DNA of 64,000 nt from Thiomicrorhabdus lithotrophica (GTDB taxonomy: Bacteria > Pseudomonadota > Gammaproteobacteria > Thiomicrospirales > Thiomicrospiraceae), in assembly GCF_029201445.1 (NCBI RefSeq), contig NZ_CP102381.1, forward strand, positions 1,550,001 to 1,614,000. The letters are read 5' to 3'. Each line of letters begins with the position of its first letter. Positions within the stretch are counted from its first letter, which is position 1. Made by a program: the position numbers and the translations under genes. Positions 47,472 to 62,769 of the stretch are shown here, one piece after another. The notes beneath the pieces were generated by a model. That model searched no databases, was not told the DNA's origin, and saw nothing but the letters and a program-made list of their open reading frames with translations.

Positions 47472-47984
47472 ATGAACACATCGCCGATTGAAATGCATGA
47501 ACTATACAACCCTGCTATGAAAAACAGTCCAGAGTGGAGGTTTGTCAGCGACCAGGTTATGGGCGGAGTATCGGAAGGCCAGGTGTTTTTTAACATAGAA
47601 GAAGAATCGCCCTGTCATTGCTTAACAGGCCTGGTAAGTTTAGAAAACAACGGTGGATTTTTGCAAATGCAATTGGTGAATTTAGATCAAATTGGTATTA
47701 ATTATGCCGATTACAAAGGTTTATATATTGAGGTCAAGGGTAACAATCATGAATACAATCTACACCTACGCACCTCTCAGCTATGGCTTCCTTGGCAGTC
47801 ATTTAGACAGCGTTTTTTTGCGGTCGAGCAATGGCAGCGGTTGTTTTTTCCCTTTGAAGAGTTTGAATCTTATAAAACTTTTTCAGAGCTTAATACCAAA
47901 AAAATACGCCGTTTAGGCATTTTGGCTATTGGAGAAGCATTTGAATCCAATATCTGTATTCGCAACTTAGGCTTATACCGCTAA
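47472..47984 (+). CDS. CIA30-family (NDUFAF1-like) protein
   Basis: A 170-residue protein of the complex I intermediate-associated protein 30 type: EWRFVSDQVMGGVSEGQVFF at the start, GFLQMQL, IEVKGN and YNLHLRTSQLW strands of a galactose-binding-like jelly roll. In bacteria the function is unclear; carbohydrate or flavoprotein interaction is possible. It starts 2 bases after trpB and precedes the cryptochrome-like pair by 60 bases. A CAGGCCTGGT copy is embedded (47626, encoding TGLV). Confidence 0.85.
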   Translation: MNTSPIEMHELYNPAMKNSPEWRFVSDQVMGGVSEGQVFFNIEEESPCHCLTGLVSLENNGGFLQMQLVNLDQIGINYADYKGLYIEVKGNNHEYNLHLRTSQLWLPWQSFRQRFFAVEQWQRLFFPFEEFESYKTFSELNTKKIRRLGILAIGEAFESNICIRNLGLYR

Positions 47985-48043
47985 CAAACAGAAGTCATAA
48001 ACCAGACGTTTAAAAACCAATATCGGTTTTAAGGAAGTAGAAA

Positions 48044-48874
48044 ATGCTATTTTATGAGACATTACTTAACGGAAAATTCGTACCAGTAACGCTTGAAGGC
48101 AAAAATCCCCGTGAGCGTTTTACCGACTGGATGCTACTTGAACAACCGTTCATTTCTTCACCTATTGAAGGCGGCATGAAACAGGCTCAGGAGAAACTTA
48201 AAGCTTTAGATTTCTCTGCTTACCACAAAACCCGTAATTATTTAGATGGCGCAGTGAGTGGTTTGTCGCCCTATATTGAGCATGGGTTAATTCAACCTGA
48301 TGAAGTTCTCAAGTTTATTGATACCAATAACGCTCGCATAGAAGCTTATCATTTTCTTCAGCAATTGAGTTGGCGTGCTTTTTTTGAGCAAAAGTATTTA
48401 GAAGATCCAAGCTTAATTTGGAAAGATGCCGGTGAATACAAAACCGGATTTACTGCAGCCGATTATGCTGACGTGATGCCAGATGACATTATCAAAGGGC
48501 AAACACCCGTAGCCGTTATTAACCAGTTTATTGAAGAACTCTATCAGACAGGTTATTTACATAATCATGCACGCCTCTACCTGGCAGCTTATGTTGTCCA
48601 TTGGCGAAGAGTCAAATGGCAAGCTGGTGCCAAATGGATGCTGAGTCACTTATTAGATGGCAATTTAGCCTCAAATAACTACTCGTGGCAATGGGTAGCT
48701 AGCACAGGCAGCACAAAGCCTTATATCTTTAATTTAGACAACGTTATTGAATTTGCTAACCAAAAATATAAAACCCAAAGAACGTTGAATGTTGATATTG
48801 ATAAATCTTACGAAACGTTAAAGCAACAACTCTTTCCTCAAATAGTGGAGTCGCAAAATGAAAAAGGACATTGA
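48044..48874 (+). CDS. Cryptochrome/photolyase FAD-binding domain, stand-alone
   Basis: 276 residues corresponding to only the C-terminal FAD-binding half of the photolyase/cryptochrome family. It has GGMKQAQEKLKALDFSAY, SGLSPYIEHGLIQP (cofactor-binding TSxLSPYLHFG), FLQQLSWRAFFEQKY, TGYLHNHARLYLAAYV (the MHNRxRM region) and ANNYSWQWVASTGS, which retains the flavin-proximal Trp of the electron chain; VKWQAG keeps the middle Trp. The surface Trp position appears not to be Trp. The N-terminal antenna/alpha-beta domain is absent but seems to be encoded by the next, overlapping gene. AAGGAAG precedes the ATG. Confidence 0.87.
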   Translation: MLFYETLLNGKFVPVTLEGKNPRERFTDWMLLEQPFISSPIEGGMKQAQEKLKALDFSAYHKTRNYLDGAVSGLSPYIEHGLIQPDEVLKFIDTNNARIEAYHFLQQLSWRAFFEQKYLEDPSLIWKDAGEYKTGFTAADYADVMPDDIIKGQTPVAVINQFIEELYQTGYLHNHARLYLAAYVVHWRRVKWQAGAKWMLSHLLDGNLASNNYSWQWVASTGSTKPYIFNLDNVIEFANQKYKTQRTLNVDIDKSYETLKQQLFPQIVESQNEKGH

Positions 48875-49358
48875 TACGCTAATCTGGTTACCTCCAACTC
48901 AGCTTAATGCTAATCATTCGGTTTATGATACGGTTAATGACCGGGTTGGCACTTTATTTATTTGGGATGACGCCTACTTTAGTAGCATGGGATTCTCTAC
49001 CAAACGTCTGTATTTTATTTGGCAGTGTTTGCAAGATTTCAGAAAGCAGAACCTAATGGTTATTAAAGGCGACACAGATCACGTTTTAAAATCCATTTAT
49101 GAAAAAACACCTAATATCAAAATTGTGACGCCAGATGATAAACGTTTGGATTATAGTAATTGGGACTTCATTAAACGTATTCCACAATCACAGTTTTTCA
49201 TCTACCAGGGCAAGATGCCATTTGGATTTTTTAAATTTTGGAAACAAGCTGAACAATCGCTTTACCCAAATGTCAAAAAGAATGCGAACGCTTCTAACAG
49301 TATAATCGCTAATAAGTTAACCCATAAGAGTGAGCACAACAGTATACAATCCGCATAA
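48858..49358 (+). CDS. Photolyase N-terminal (Rossmann-like) domain protein
   Basis: A 166-residue protein overlapping the previous gene by 17 bases, with GGAG before its ATG. Its pattern mirrors the photolyase alpha/beta domain: TLIWLPPTQLNANHSVYDTV (compare LVWFRxDLRxxDNxAL), VGTLFIWDDAY, STKRLYFIWQCLQDF, QNLMVIKGDTDHVLKSIYE (compare LLVLxGDPxxVLPEL) and IKIVTPDD. So the two genes together rebuild a cryptochrome in swapped order, C-domain gene first. The likeness is by pattern, not by alignment, hence moderate confidence. The C-terminal ~30 residues are Asn/Ser-rich. Confidence 0.65.
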   Translation: MKKDIDTLIWLPPTQLNANHSVYDTVNDRVGTLFIWDDAYFSSMGFSTKRLYFIWQCLQDFRKQNLMVIKGDTDHVLKSIYEKTPNIKIVTPDDKRLDYSNWDFIKRIPQSQFFIYQGKMPFGFFKFWKQAEQSLYPNVKKNANASNSIIANKLTHKSEHNSIQSA

Positions 49359-57985: not shown

Positions 57986-58816
57986 TTATAAATTATAACC
58001 GTGGCATTGCAGTACATTTCCCATATCAAACGAATCAGCACGTTCTGTAAAAAAGTGAAACTCTAAACTTGGATGATCAGTCACCCAGCCTTGCCAATGC
58101 GTTTTATCTAGTTTTTGATTTTCATCAACCACCACTAGACCTTGACAGTGAGAACTCTTGATACTGTTCAATAAAAGCTCATTATTTTTTTGTGGATTAG
58201 GGCTAATTACACAATAAAAACCTTTATCTGCTAAACGAATAGCCGCCAAAACCAGTACGACGATAGAGCCATTTATGTCTTCTGCTTGTAACCACAATTT
58301 TTTGCTTGCATGCAAACTTACATGGCGGGTCGAGAAACGTAAACGAGTGTAGAGTCGAGGCAGCACCTGCGATTCCCAAAAAGTATTAATGGTTTCTGAA
58401 GAGTGCACCGCTAAAAGCTGAGAGGCATTTTTTAAGATTTCAAATAAAGCCTTATCACTCACATCTTGAAAGAGCTGATCTAGTTCACTACTTAAACTGT
58501 CTAAATCAAATTGAAGGGTTGCATCAACGATTTTTGATAAATAATCATAATCTCCTTGATGAATTTCTTCTTTAACTTGCGGCACAGCTTGGCTGAGCCT
58601 GGCTTTAACTTGGCTAATGGGAATTCCTTCTTCCGTTAGCTTAACTGCGGCTTTTATCTGCTCAATGTGCTCCAAGGTATAAAGACGGTGTCCACCTTCG
58701 GTACGAACTGGCTCTATCAAACCATAACGGCGCTCCCATGCTCTAAGCGTAATAGAGTTTACTCCCGTTAAATTGGAGACTTCTCTAATTGGATATAATG
58801 CATCGTTAGTTTTCAT
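57986..58816 (-). CDS. MerR/LitR-type regulator without B12 motif (class II LitR-like)
   Basis: A 276-residue protein: N-terminal MerR winged helix (YPIREVSNLTGVNSITLRAW through GGHRLYT, residues 7-47), a helical middle domain (about 75-165) and a C-terminal alpha/beta domain (IVVLVLAAIRLADKGFYCVI) that resembles the B12-binding fold of CarH/LitR. I cannot find the cobalamin-ligand histidine motif (DxHxxG or similar), so it probably does not bind B12. This matches 'class II' LitR proteins of Pseudomonas, which work with a short LOV protein. It is the last gene of the photolyase-CFA operon (97 bases after phrB) and convergent with the LOV gene. Confidence 0.85.
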   Translation of the reverse strand: MKTNDALYPIREVSNLTGVNSITLRAWERRYGLIEPVRTEGGHRLYTLEHIEQIKAAVKLTEEGIPISQVKARLSQAVPQVKEEIHQGDYDYLSKIVDATLQFDLDSLSSELDQLFQDVSDKALFEILKNASQLLAVHSSETINTFWESQVLPRLYTRLRFSTRHVSLHASKKLWLQAEDINGSIVVLVLAAIRLADKGFYCVISPNPQKNNELLLNSIKSSHCQGLVVVDENQKLDKTHWQGWVTDHPSLEFHFFTERADSFDMGNVLQCHGYNL

Positions 58817-58913
58817 AGTGTTTCAGTTCTTTGTTTGGGGTACATGGGCCTTAAAGCCTAATAGTTATGCATATGTTAGACAAAAAGTTGTACTAAAGCA
58901 ATTATAGCGAGTT

Positions 58914-60383
58914 TTAGACGGCTACTTTCATAGCGGCTACTCGTTCTAAATGTGTACTTCTACTCTGTTTTAAATCCACCAAAGGTAAAGGATAGTCACT
59001 ACCCAAAACGACTCCCTTTAACTGGCACTCATTTTGATTCTCCCAAGGTGCATGAATCGCTTTACTTGAAAGATTTTTTAACTCTGGCAACCATTGACGA
59101 ATATAGTCGCCATTTGAATCAAATTTAATACTTTGGGTAACAGGATTAAATAAACGATAGTAAGGTGAAGCATCTACTCCGCAACCAGCCACCCATTGCC
59201 ATCCCATAACGTTGTTCGCTGGATCAGCATCAAACAAGGTATTATCAAACCATGCCTTACCCTGCAACCAGTGCTGGTTAAGGTTTTTTGTTAAAAAAGA
59301 AGCGACTAGCATTCTTACTCGGTTATGCATGGTTCCGGTTTCCCATAATTCACGCATACCAGCATCAATAATCGGAATGCCCGTTAACCCTTTCTGCCAG
59401 GCCTGGTAACTATTTAAATCCTCTTGCCATGACATAGTCTTATATTTGGTTTGAAATGGTTCACTCTCGGTTTGCGGGAAATGAACGAGTAAATGACGGG
59501 CAAACTCTTTCCAAACAAGCTGTCTTATCCACGGCATAGCGTGCTCGGCTTTTAAAGCGCCGTCAGCCATTAAACTTTGTAGATAAAAATAGATGGCTCT
59601 AGGGTTTATTTCTCCAAAATGCAAATACGGAGAAAGACCACTGGTTGCGTTTAGAATTGGAAAATCTCTATCTGTGTCATAATCCACCACACCATTTTCA
59701 ATAAACTCGTTTAGCTTTTGCCAAGCGGCCTGCTCTCCTACCTGCCAATAAGCCATCATTTTTTTAGCCCAAGGCTTTTTCATTAAATCTTGCAAATCTA
59801 AAGGGAGCTCTAACCAGGCCTGGTCAACTGGCTGCAACTGACCGCAACGCTCAAGCCCTTCTAGCTCTTCTTGTAAAGGCATAATCAGTGTTTGTTTAGC
59901 TAATAGCGCTTTATAAAAAGGGGTAAAAACCAAATAGGGTTTATTTTGCTGGTTATGAATATTTTCTGGTTCGATTAAGAACTCCGAATAGTTTGGCTGC
60001 AAAGCCACTTTATGCTTTTTACAAATTTCTAATGCCTTATCTTGCAGGCTATTAAAGGGGTAACCGACTTGAAAACTGTATAAAACTTCTTGGATTGTAT
60101 ATTTCGTTAGTAGTGATTCAAACTGCGTTTCAAAGTCCCCCGAAACAATCCAAAGAAACCCGCCTTTCTCTTTAATATCAGCTTGCAACTGCTTTAGACT
60201 ATGCGCCATCCAAAGTGAATTGGCTTCACCTATCACGTATTTTGGATCATGAAAGTAGACCACAATGACCAGGCCTGGTGATTCTAAAGCCGCCTGCAAA
60301 GTCGGCAAAGCACTCAGTCTAAACTCACGTTGTAACCAAACTAATTTGGTGGTTTTATCATCATTTTTAGTACTATTGACCAT
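58914..60383 (-). CDS. phrB: Deoxyribodipyrimidine photolyase (class I CPD)
   Basis: 489 residues. The N-terminal antenna domain opens LVWLQREFRLSALPTL. The FAD domain has GLSPYLHFGEINPRAI, QLVWKEFARHLL, TMHNRVRMLVASFLTKN and NVMGWQWVAGCG. All three electron-transfer tryptophans are in place (MSWQED, HWLQG, GWQWVAG). It repairs UV-made cyclobutane dimers using blue light. The N-terminal motif differs from the usual FRxDLR. Two full palindromes (59813 and 60268) and one partial (59397) are embedded in the gene. It lies 25 bases after the CHI-like gene, in one operon. Confidence 0.94.
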   Translation of the reverse strand: MVNSTKNDDKTTKLVWLQREFRLSALPTLQAALESPGLVIVVYFHDPKYVIGEANSLWMAHSLKQLQADIKEKGGFLWIVSGDFETQFESLLTKYTIQEVLYSFQVGYPFNSLQDKALEICKKHKVALQPNYSEFLIEPENIHNQQNKPYLVFTPFYKALLAKQTLIMPLQEELEGLERCGQLQPVDQAWLELPLDLQDLMKKPWAKKMMAYWQVGEQAAWQKLNEFIENGVVDYDTDRDFPILNATSGLSPYLHFGEINPRAIYFYLQSLMADGALKAEHAMPWIRQLVWKEFARHLLVHFPQTESEPFQTKYKTMSWQEDLNSYQAWQKGLTGIPIIDAGMRELWETGTMHNRVRMLVASFLTKNLNQHWLQGKAWFDNTLFDADPANNVMGWQWVAGCGVDASPYYRLFNPVTQSIKFDSNGDYIRQWLPELKNLSSKAIHAPWENQNECQLKGVVLGSDYPLPLVDLKQSRSTHLERVAAMKVAV

Positions 60384-60408
60384 TCTTTAACTACCTAATA
60401 AATGAGAA

Positions 60409-60954
60409 CTAATAAGCGGGAACTAATAAACTGGATTTTAAAGATTCAGACAACGGGTTTTCACCCAACCAAACCCCAAAATAAACCGCTTTAAATCCAT
60501 CGACGTGACTACTGAAAACAGTTTGGTTATTTAATTTCAATTGAGTACCTGTTTGCGGAGCGTACTCTAAAACATAGCAATCGTCAGGCTCAACGGACTG
60601 ATAAGATTGATGCAACCGATTCACTTCATTTTGCAGCGTTGTGGTCAATGTTTTGGGTAAAACTTTATTTGCACCTTCAATAAAAATATCGGTGCTAATC
60701 GCTTTTAAATAACAAAGCTCTAACTTCAAAGGCTCAGCATCACTCAAAAAGTCTTGTGGTAAGACCGACTTGTTGGCAAATAGACGTGCATTATAGACAT
60801 CAAAAAACATCCACGTCGCTGTACCACTGGAGACTTGAGTCCAGTTTTCATCTTCCACACCCTTGTCATTTGACACAGCAGCAGTGCTAAAAGACATAGA
60901 GATAACAGCCACTATGGTAAAGACACTCTTAGAATAGTTATTAAAAAAACTCAT
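60409..60954 (-). CDS. Exported chalcone-isomerase-like protein
   Basis: A 181-residue protein with a signal peptide (ends TAAVS) and a chalcone-isomerase-like body (GTATWMFFDVYNARLFANKS, LELCYLKAISTDIFIEGANK, GFKAVYFGVWLGENPLSESL). Bacterial CHI-like proteins bind fatty acids rather than chalcones. It lies between the DUF3833 lipoprotein gene and phrB in the light operon, a placement repeated in other gammaproteobacterial photolyase clusters. A role in fatty-acid delivery to the CFA-like methyltransferase is plausible. Confidence 0.8.
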   Translation of the reverse strand: MSFFNNYSKSVFTIVAVISMSFSTAAVSNDKGVEDENWTQVSSGTATWMFFDVYNARLFANKSVLPQDFLSDAEPLKLELCYLKAISTDIFIEGANKVLPKTLTTTLQNEVNRLHQSYQSVEPDDCYVLEYAPQTGTQLKLNNQTVFSSHVDGFKAVYFGVWLGENPLSESLKSSLLVPAY

Positions 60955-60982
60955 AATGAACGGTTGACCTTAAAAGCTAAAA

Positions 60983-61528
60983 TCATAGTGGATTTTTACT
61001 GAAGAACAATGTGACTTCACCGACATTGAAACCCCATTTGGTTACACTAGCACGGTTTAGCATTGTTTTATCGCTATGCAAAAACATCCAATCATTAAAC
61101 TGCACATGTATCGTGCTGTCTTTATAAGGTAAATCTAAGGTATAACGCCAATTTAATGCATTACCTGCTGATTCACCAATCGCTTCACCAATCACATCAT
61201 CCGCTTTACCAGTGTATGTTCCTTCAGCAATTTTAGTAATACGCCAAATTCTCTGTTGTTTCTCACCGTCGTTATATACAAAACGTTCATCTAAGGTCAA
61301 TTGATTGCCTTCAACCTCACCCGTAATATCTACTGTAAATCGACGAATCACCAAACCAGATCTATCTTGAAACTGACCTTGAGCGTAAGTTTTTCCCTTG
61401 AAATAATCAAACAAATCTAGTTTTGGTTCTGCATTTTTATAGTCTTGAATTTTCACCGAACTACACCCTGAAATCATAGATATTAATAGTAGGCTAATCA
61501 GTACGCCTGTATACTTAATCGCTTTCAT
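60983..61528 (-). CDS. DUF3833 lipoprotein
   Basis: A 181-residue lipoprotein: lipobox ISGC (Cys about residue 22), then the DUF3833 body with LDLFDYFKGKTYAQGQFQDRSGLVIRRF, TGKADDVIGEAIGESAGNALNWRY and a C-terminal beta-rich GEVTLFFSK. It resembles lipocalin-like folds. DUF3833 genes almost always neighbour CFA-like and amine-oxidase-like genes. It lies 8 bases after the methyltransferase gene; probably involved in lipid handling at the outer membrane. Confidence 0.88.
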   Translation of the reverse strand: MKAIKYTGVLISLLLISMISGCSSVKIQDYKNAEPKLDLFDYFKGKTYAQGQFQDRSGLVIRRFTVDITGEVEGNQLTLDERFVYNDGEKQQRIWRITKIAEGTYTGKADDVIGEAIGESAGNALNWRYTLDLPYKDSTIHVQFNDWMFLHSDKTMLNRASVTKWGFNVGEVTLFFSKNPL

Positions 61529-61536
61529 ATCGCCCC

Positions 61537-62769
61537 CTAAATCTGTTCAAGCTTGGTAAGGGTTAATTGCACGACACTACTGTGCTTAGTTTCAAAACCA
61601 ACTGTGCAATAATCCAAGTAGTAGTTCCACATTCTTTGGAACTTAGCATCATAGCCTTGCTCTAATAATGTCTGGCTGTGCTTGTTGAAATCTTGCTTCC
61701 ATAACTGACACGTTTTGGCGTAATCTTGCCCAAAATCAAAGACATTATCGACCTTAAAGCCGTGTTTTGCTGCCAATTGTTTTAATTGAGTTAAGCTCGG
61801 TAATAAACCACCAGGGAAAATATAGGTTTGAATAAAGTCGACATTAGACTGATAGTGTTCAGCAAATTCTTCATTAATGGTAATGACCTGCAACGCAACT
61901 TTACCGTCGTCTTTTAAGCATTCGTTCAACTTTTCAAAATAGACATCCCAATACTCTTTACCCACCGCCTCAAACATCTCAATGCTGACAATGTGATCAT
62001 ATTGTTGCGTTTCATGTCGATAGTCTTGTAACGCAACTTGATATTGCGGTTCTTTTGCCTGGCTTTGTAAACGGTTAATTGCAAAATCTCGCTGCTCTGT
62101 AGATAAAGTCAAACCTTTAACCATTGCCCCTTTACTAACCGCGGCTTCCATAAACCCGCCCCAACCACAGCCAATTTCAAGCACACTTTGACCTGCTTTT
62201 AAATCAATTTCATCAATCAATCTTTGGTATTTATTATGCTGAGCAGATGCTAAATCTTGTTCCGAATCGGTAAAAATAGCACTCGAATAAGACATCGTTT
62301 GATCTAACCACTTTTGGTAAAAGTCGTTACCTAAATCATAATGATAAGAGATATTTTTACGGCTATTTTCTACCGAGTTATGACGCTTACGATGTTGCCA
62401 AAGGTGCCATAAATTGAATTTTTTATTCGCCAGCAAGTCATCTAATACCGTTTGGTTTTGATAGACCAATTGCATCAGGCTGTATAGCGAATTCGTTTCT
62501 ACTGCATGTTCAAAATAAGCTTGCGCAAAGCCAAGCTCACCTTGGGTTTTCATTAACCAATAAGCTCTAAAAGGATTTTTTAGAATTAACTCAGCATGTG
62601 GCCCAAACTCTGCCCCTTGAAAACGGTGTGTTTCACCAAATAACTCTAACGTTAAGCTCCCCTTAACCAACTTATTAAAAGGGAGTTTTAGTATCATTTT
62701 TTGAACAAAGGATGGTGTCACCATTTTTTCTAATAAGGTGAATCCACTATTTGAAATAGCCTTTAACAT
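61537..62769 (-). CDS. CFA-type fatty-acid methyltransferase (UfaM/CfaB-like)
   Basis: A 410-residue SAM-dependent methyltransferase of the cyclopropane-fatty-acid synthase family: NISYHYDLGNDFYQKWLDQT (substrate entry), SAM loop SVLEIGCGWGGFMEAA (195-210), EMFEAVGKEYWDVYF and IFPGGLLPSLTQL. N-terminal ~130 residues are the CFA-specific domain. In light clusters this enzyme is linked with membrane-lipid methylation and furan-fatty-acid formation, so UfaM is the better analogue than housekeeping Cfa. It overlaps the DUF1365 gene by 7 bases. Confidence 0.9.
   Translation of the reverse strand: MLKAISNSGFTLLEKMVTPSFVQKMILKLPFNKLVKGSLTLELFGETHRFQGAEFGPHAELILKNPFRAYWLMKTQGELGFAQAYFEHAVETNSLYSLMQLVYQNQTVLDDLLANKKFNLWHLWQHRKRHNSVENSRKNISYHYDLGNDFYQKWLDQTMSYSSAIFTDSEQDLASAQHNKYQRLIDEIDLKAGQSVLEIGCGWGGFMEAAVSKGAMVKGLTLSTEQRDFAINRLQSQAKEPQYQVALQDYRHETQQYDHIVSIEMFEAVGKEYWDVYFEKLNECLKDDGKVALQVITINEEFAEHYQSNVDFIQTYIFPGGLLPSLTQLKQLAAKHGFKVDNVFDFGQDYAKTCQLWKQDFNKHSQTLLEQGYDAKFQRMWNYYLDYCTVGFETKHSSVVQLTLTKLEQI

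Follow-up and report, generated by a model that had tools for sequence, protein, structure and literature searches.

The closest described systems are those of marine picocyanobacteria. In marine Synechococcus, two adjacent ORFs, Phr4 and Phr5, carry the FAD domain and the photolyase domain in an order opposite to the usual one (PMC9426592). Split, reversed photolyases of this type have been reported in marine Synechococcus and Cyanobium, and Phr6 of Cyanobium is a fused version of Phr4/Phr5 (PMC9426592). Disruption of Phr4/Phr5 lowered UV-C survival, and E. coli cells expressing them gained UV-C protection, to the same extent in light and dark (PMC9426592). A 6-4 activity has been proposed for Phr4, and a programmed +1 frameshift has been suggested for Phr4/Phr5. 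Another related group is formed by short photolyase-like (SPL) proteins, which are said to be without an alpha/beta domain (PMC9649867) and which have been proposed to represent the ancestral, antenna-less state of the photolyase family. Thus, the original prediction for the locus described here was mistaken in one respect, as it knew of no description of such a reversed, split form, and both Phr4/Phr5 and the fused Phr6 had been published (PMC9426592).

The window, a stretch of 64,000 nucleotides from Thiomicrorhabdus lithotrophica (genome size 2.5 Mb; the named relatives are Thiomicrorhabdus, Thiomicrospira and Hydrogenovibrio), contains two overlapping genes that both start with ATG. P1 (48044..48874, + strand) encodes a Phr4/SPL-like protein of 276 aa, assigned as the FAD-binding catalytic half by its PF03441 match, clade placement and residue mapping. 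P2 (48858..49358, + strand) encodes, as a protein of its own, a Phr5-like alpha/beta (antenna-type) half of 166 aa, assigned by a profile search against PDB, AlphaFold and Foldseek. The genes share 17 nt (48858..48874, + strand), with P2 in the +1 frame relative to P1, and the originally given overlap and gene boundaries were exact. Putative ribosome-binding sites were found for P1 (AAGGAAG, 48031..48037, + strand) and, inside P1 and 7 nt before the ATG of P2, for P2 (GGAG, 48847..48850, + strand). A 13-pair hairpin with a T-rich tail lies 3' of P2 (49403..49436, + strand; -23.3 kcal/mol, z -3.5) and is likely the end of the P1-P2 transcription unit. A CIA30-family gene (PF08547, E 1.6e-23; 47472..47984, + strand) is located 59 nt upstream of P1. 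CIA30 genes were also observed beside split pairs, on either side, in many relatives (L028, L030, L031, L033, L034, L038, L041, L042, L057, L058, L059 and L062).

With Pfam profiles, P1 matched PF03441 (FAD_binding_7; E 4.2e-22, 79 bits versus a cut-off of 27) and had no match to PF00875. It is thus a short FAD protein without the N-terminal alpha/beta domain, as originally claimed. Its best PDB matches were the photolyases of A. nidulans, Agrobacterium and E. coli, over their catalytic halves. Residue mapping showed that the FAD residues Y60, S72, L74, S75, R111, N174, D205 and N211 are retained, together with both substrate-contact Trp residues (W110 and W217), the FAD-N5 Asn and the inner two Trp residues of the electron-path triad (W192 and W215). 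In place of the surface Trp of this triad, P1 has Tyr141, and this position is Tyr without exception across the split family, including the Phr4 group. Asn174 and Leu178 are CPD-type residues at what we take to be the positions of two His residues in 6-4 enzymes, which favors CPDs as the substrate. Substrate and efficiency are made less certain by Gln107, which is Glu in CPD photolyases such as the A. nidulans enzyme and is also Gln in class I enzymes of the host genus, and by Asn207, which replaces a near-invariant Asp in a change special to the window's clade. No Cys is present in the 276 aa of P1; the Fe-S site is therefore absent, and an Fe-S cluster in this protein was rejected.

When P2 alone was compared with PF00875, the match (E 0.005, 17.2 bits) was under the cut-off of 26.6; of 52 P2 relatives, 13 matched this family singly, with a best E of 3.5e-5. 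A profile of 20 relatives hit full-length DASH-like proteins from other genomes in their N-terminal domains (E 2.4e-6 and 7.2e-6). When a profile of all 52 was run against 177,635 PDB sequences, photolyase/cryptochrome N-terminal domains ranked first (best E 0.00096). In hhalign comparisons, the similarity of P2 to class I photolyases was weak (E 0.039), and that to the other photolyase-like protein of the host genome had an E of 4.6e-6. The AlphaFold model of P2 (mean pLDDT 88.6, pTM 0.72) has five strands. Foldseek matched it to photolyases and cryptochromes with probability up to 1.00, every E-value being above 0.001. After re-alignment, 49 of the 50 best chains were photolyases or cryptochromes, mainly aligned at the N-terminal domain, and the top match was residues 1-165 of the E. 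coli photolyase chain 1dnp (Z 10.6 over 134 residues). Universal stress proteins also resemble the P2 fold, but photolyase domains match it more closely. By family profile and predicted fold, P2 is a photolyase alpha/beta domain, in agreement with the original prediction. Both genes are under purifying selection, with pN/pS of 0.11-0.17 for P1 and about 0.16-0.22 for P2 among the close species compared, and a P2 dN/dS of 0.05-0.10 in the two pairs with measurable dS.

The pairing of the two genes is conserved. Among 63 genomes of the host's order, P2 was immediately downstream of P1 in all 21 that have a P1-type gene. We also surveyed the best 80 relatives in the genome collection, and 75 of them were followed on the same strand by a P2 relative; 64 of these pairs were tightly spaced and 56 of the 64 overlapped. 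A further relative, from a Planctomycetes MAG (L116), had both domains in a single ORF. In the remaining four cases, P2 was elsewhere in the genome (two Calothrix) or on other contigs (one), or the contig stopped at the P1 gene (one). The FAD gene thus precedes the alpha/beta gene in relatives as in the window, and the reversed, split domain order that had been predicted is a shared feature. The two-gene unit is present in Proteobacteria, Acidobacteria, Chloroflexi and Cyanobacteria, and fused forms occur in Planctomycetes and in Deinococcus, whose plasmids encode natural fusions of the FAD half followed by the alpha/beta half. A predicted model of the L116 fusion had a pTM of 0.81 despite about 70 disordered residues; this value, which was obtained for L116 and not for the window pair, is compatible with the two domains being arranged in a defined way. 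A structural search with the fused model reported matches for the FAD domain only.

Among 244 cyanobacterial genomes, 47 had both genes, 196 had neither, none had P2 alone and one had P1 alone, and the latter was itself a fused protein of 451 aa with a diverged P2-like end. The association (Fisher's test, about 1e-49) is inflated by shared ancestry. In 16 of the 47 genomes with both genes, the pair was unlinked, with its two members on different contigs or separated by hundreds of kilobases. Such near-perfect co-occurrence despite unlinked copies indicates that the alpha/beta part works with the FAD part in trans. Single-chain FAD proteins whose C-terminal parts match P2 solely at the last motif were seen on a Persicobacter plasmid (L207, 404 aa) and in a cyanobacterium (G740; L212, 451 aa), and it is possible that these are intermediates towards NewPHL.

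The FAD half P1 belongs with the SPL proteins. S. elongatus has been reported to have an SPL gene, SephrC. One S. elongatus-like genome encodes a class I photolyase that shares 96% identity over 183 residues with the A. nidulans / S. elongatus enzyme; in this genome, an SPL-type gene is directly followed, after 3 nt, by a P2 relative. The alpha/beta domain of SPLs thus seems not to be missing but encoded by a separate gene, and SPLs would usually carry it in this form. Two papers that cite the SPL work of Xu (2021) (PMC9178010, PMC9649867) do not mention a separate alpha/beta gene, and the primary SPL and NewPHL papers might already state this link. We consider it somewhat better than an even bet that SPLs are the catalytic subunits of two-subunit photolyases, with the alpha/beta subunit gene adjacent or unlinked. 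If so, the argument for a single-domain ancestor loses its main support.

We propose that P1 and P2 are two subunits of one DNA photolyase with split domains and reversed gene order, a reading to which we assign a probability of about 0.8. It is supported by the predicted folds, pairing, co-occurrence, fusions, active-site residues and purifying selection; what we infer is that the two proteins assemble physically, bind FAD and an antenna pigment, prefer CPDs and carry out light-dependent repair. The earlier suggestion of a two-subunit flavoprotein is thereby supported indirectly. P2 would be made from its own start codon, and its translation is probably coupled to that of P1 via the overlap. 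P1 would bind FAD and the UV lesion, and P2 would most likely dock on P1, closing the FAD side and completing the enzyme; it may also carry an antenna pigment. Reduced FAD, once excited by light, would then split a pyrimidine dimer, in all likelihood a CPD, by donating an electron to it, and would be recharged via W215, W192 and perhaps Y141. The substrate of the pair is probably CPDs, as far as sequence can tell. The altered UV survival seen when Phr4/Phr5, the nearest characterised relatives, are disrupted or expressed also speaks for the proposal. It should be noted that the equal protection by Phr4/Phr5 against UV-C in light and dark counts against a light-driven repair reading.

Originally, the missing surface Trp had been taken as a hint of signalling rather than repair, with the pair viewed as a cryptochrome. 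A two-subunit blue-light signalling flavoprotein with no repair role would fit the absence of the surface triad Trp, the change of Asp to Asn at position 207 that is special to the window's clade, and the fact that a further photolyase, of class I, is encoded 10 kb from the pair and would already cover repair. However, several photolyases per genome are common, no output domain or dedicated signalling partner was seen, and Trp110, Trp217 and the FAD-N5 Asn, like most repair residues, are kept. Moreover, the Tyr corresponding to Tyr141 is present in every split member, the Phr4 group with its UV-survival phenotypes among them. A Tyr at such a triad position can serve electron transfer in other photolyases, and an E. 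coli enzyme without the surface Trp remains functional in vivo, since FAD is in its reduced form inside the cell. Thus, the surface Trp is indeed absent, as had been noted, but the never-varying Tyr in its place is no argument for signalling, and we regard a true cryptochrome as unlikely. It is also improbable that P1 works by itself, the situation implied by papers on SPLs, while P2 serves separately as a protein that binds a pigment or nucleotide. SPLs are described as being without an alpha/beta domain (PMC9649867), and universal stress proteins have a fold similar to that of P2. On the other hand, P2 is closer to photolyase domains than to stress proteins, natural P1-P2 fusions exist, and the two genes co-occur almost perfectly even if unlinked. 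Xu is said to have found, in 2021, one SPL that was active by itself, which would be in line with P1 acting alone.

Programmed +1 frameshifting within the overlap, giving a single fused polypeptide, would agree with the +1 frame of P2 and with the known natural fusions. However, P2 has its own ATG with GGAG seven bases before it, and the junctions differ widely among relatives: overlaps of 4 nt account for 30 of the 64 closely spaced pairs, and gaps, other frames and unlinked copies also occur. A conserved slip site is therefore absent, and we consider frameshifting very improbable. Split genes with a 17-nt overlap might also be expected of a normal photolyase that was broken, rearranged and is now decaying, but this explanation, to which we give practically no weight, is refuted by purifying selection on both genes and by the identical architecture across several phyla.

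Besides P1, two more proteins of the host genome carry the FAD-binding domain, the class I photolyase (58914-60383) located 10 kb from the split pair and a divergent 529-aa protein. The former lies, at 57986-62769, together with a MerR regulator, a chalcone isomerase-like protein, DUF3833 and cyclopropane fatty acid synthase, an arrangement that resembles light-response clusters known from other bacteria. The 529-aa photolyase-like protein (L002, about 998.7-1000.0 kb of the same genome) has neither the FAD-N5 Asn nor the innermost Trp of the triad, and a similar protein occurs on the Persicobacter plasmid mentioned above (L207).

The split, reversed form was already known, and what appears to be new here is its wide spread and the nearly constant retention of P2 even when unlinked. 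A photolyase described as a peculiarity of marine picocyanobacteria is widespread across phyla. An alpha/beta gene acting in trans bears on the view of SPLs as one-domain ancestors, and an alpha/beta domain that can be removed as a gene would provide a natural test of the role of this domain.

In a phylogenetic tree, the window protein, all split pairs, the Phr4 group, SPL-type, fused and NewPHL-like proteins formed one clade (support 100/98). Class I enzymes fell outside this clade and the NewPHL-like group was a sister branch within it, in an analysis for which the program gave long-branch warnings. In the window pair as in Phr4/Phr5, the FAD gene comes first and the alpha/beta half has its own gene behind it, and both halves are homologous. 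Three cyanobacterial loci (L183, L184 and L187) have Cys169/254/257/263, the positions given for RS9916 Phr4, and an adjoining P2 relative, which makes the window pair a homologue of Phr4/Phr5. It differs from Phr4/Phr5 in that P1 is without the four Fe-S Cys residues, and by the 17-nt overlap, Asn207 and Gln107. SPLs, which occur with or without the Fe-S Cys residues, share with P1 a FAD half alone in a short bacterial protein. Phr6, the Deinococcus plasmid fusions and L116 have the same domains in the same reversed order, but in one polypeptide instead of two.

NewPHL (Emmerich 2020; Phr7 in PMC9426592) likewise has the FAD domain N-terminal and the other domain C-terminal, but this inverted topology is in a single chain, whereas the window has two ORFs. 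Its placement was judged on NewPHL-like proteins of Ruegeria, Peteryoungia and Asticcacaulis; Phr7 from Prochlorococcus was not recovered. The similarity between the NewPHL C-terminal domain and P2 (hhalign E 0.089) was within the range of shuffled controls. NewPHL-like genes directly adjoin AarF/ABC1/UbiB kinase genes in Ruegeria and Peteryoungia (L204 and L209), and one is near such a gene in Asticcacaulis (L208). Finally, the class I CPD photolyases, such as E. coli PhrB and the enzyme encoded in the window itself, share both folds and most active-site residues with the P1/P2 pair; they are, however, a separate clade of single-chain proteins in which the alpha/beta domain comes first, whereas the window pair consists of two ORFs in the reversed order.
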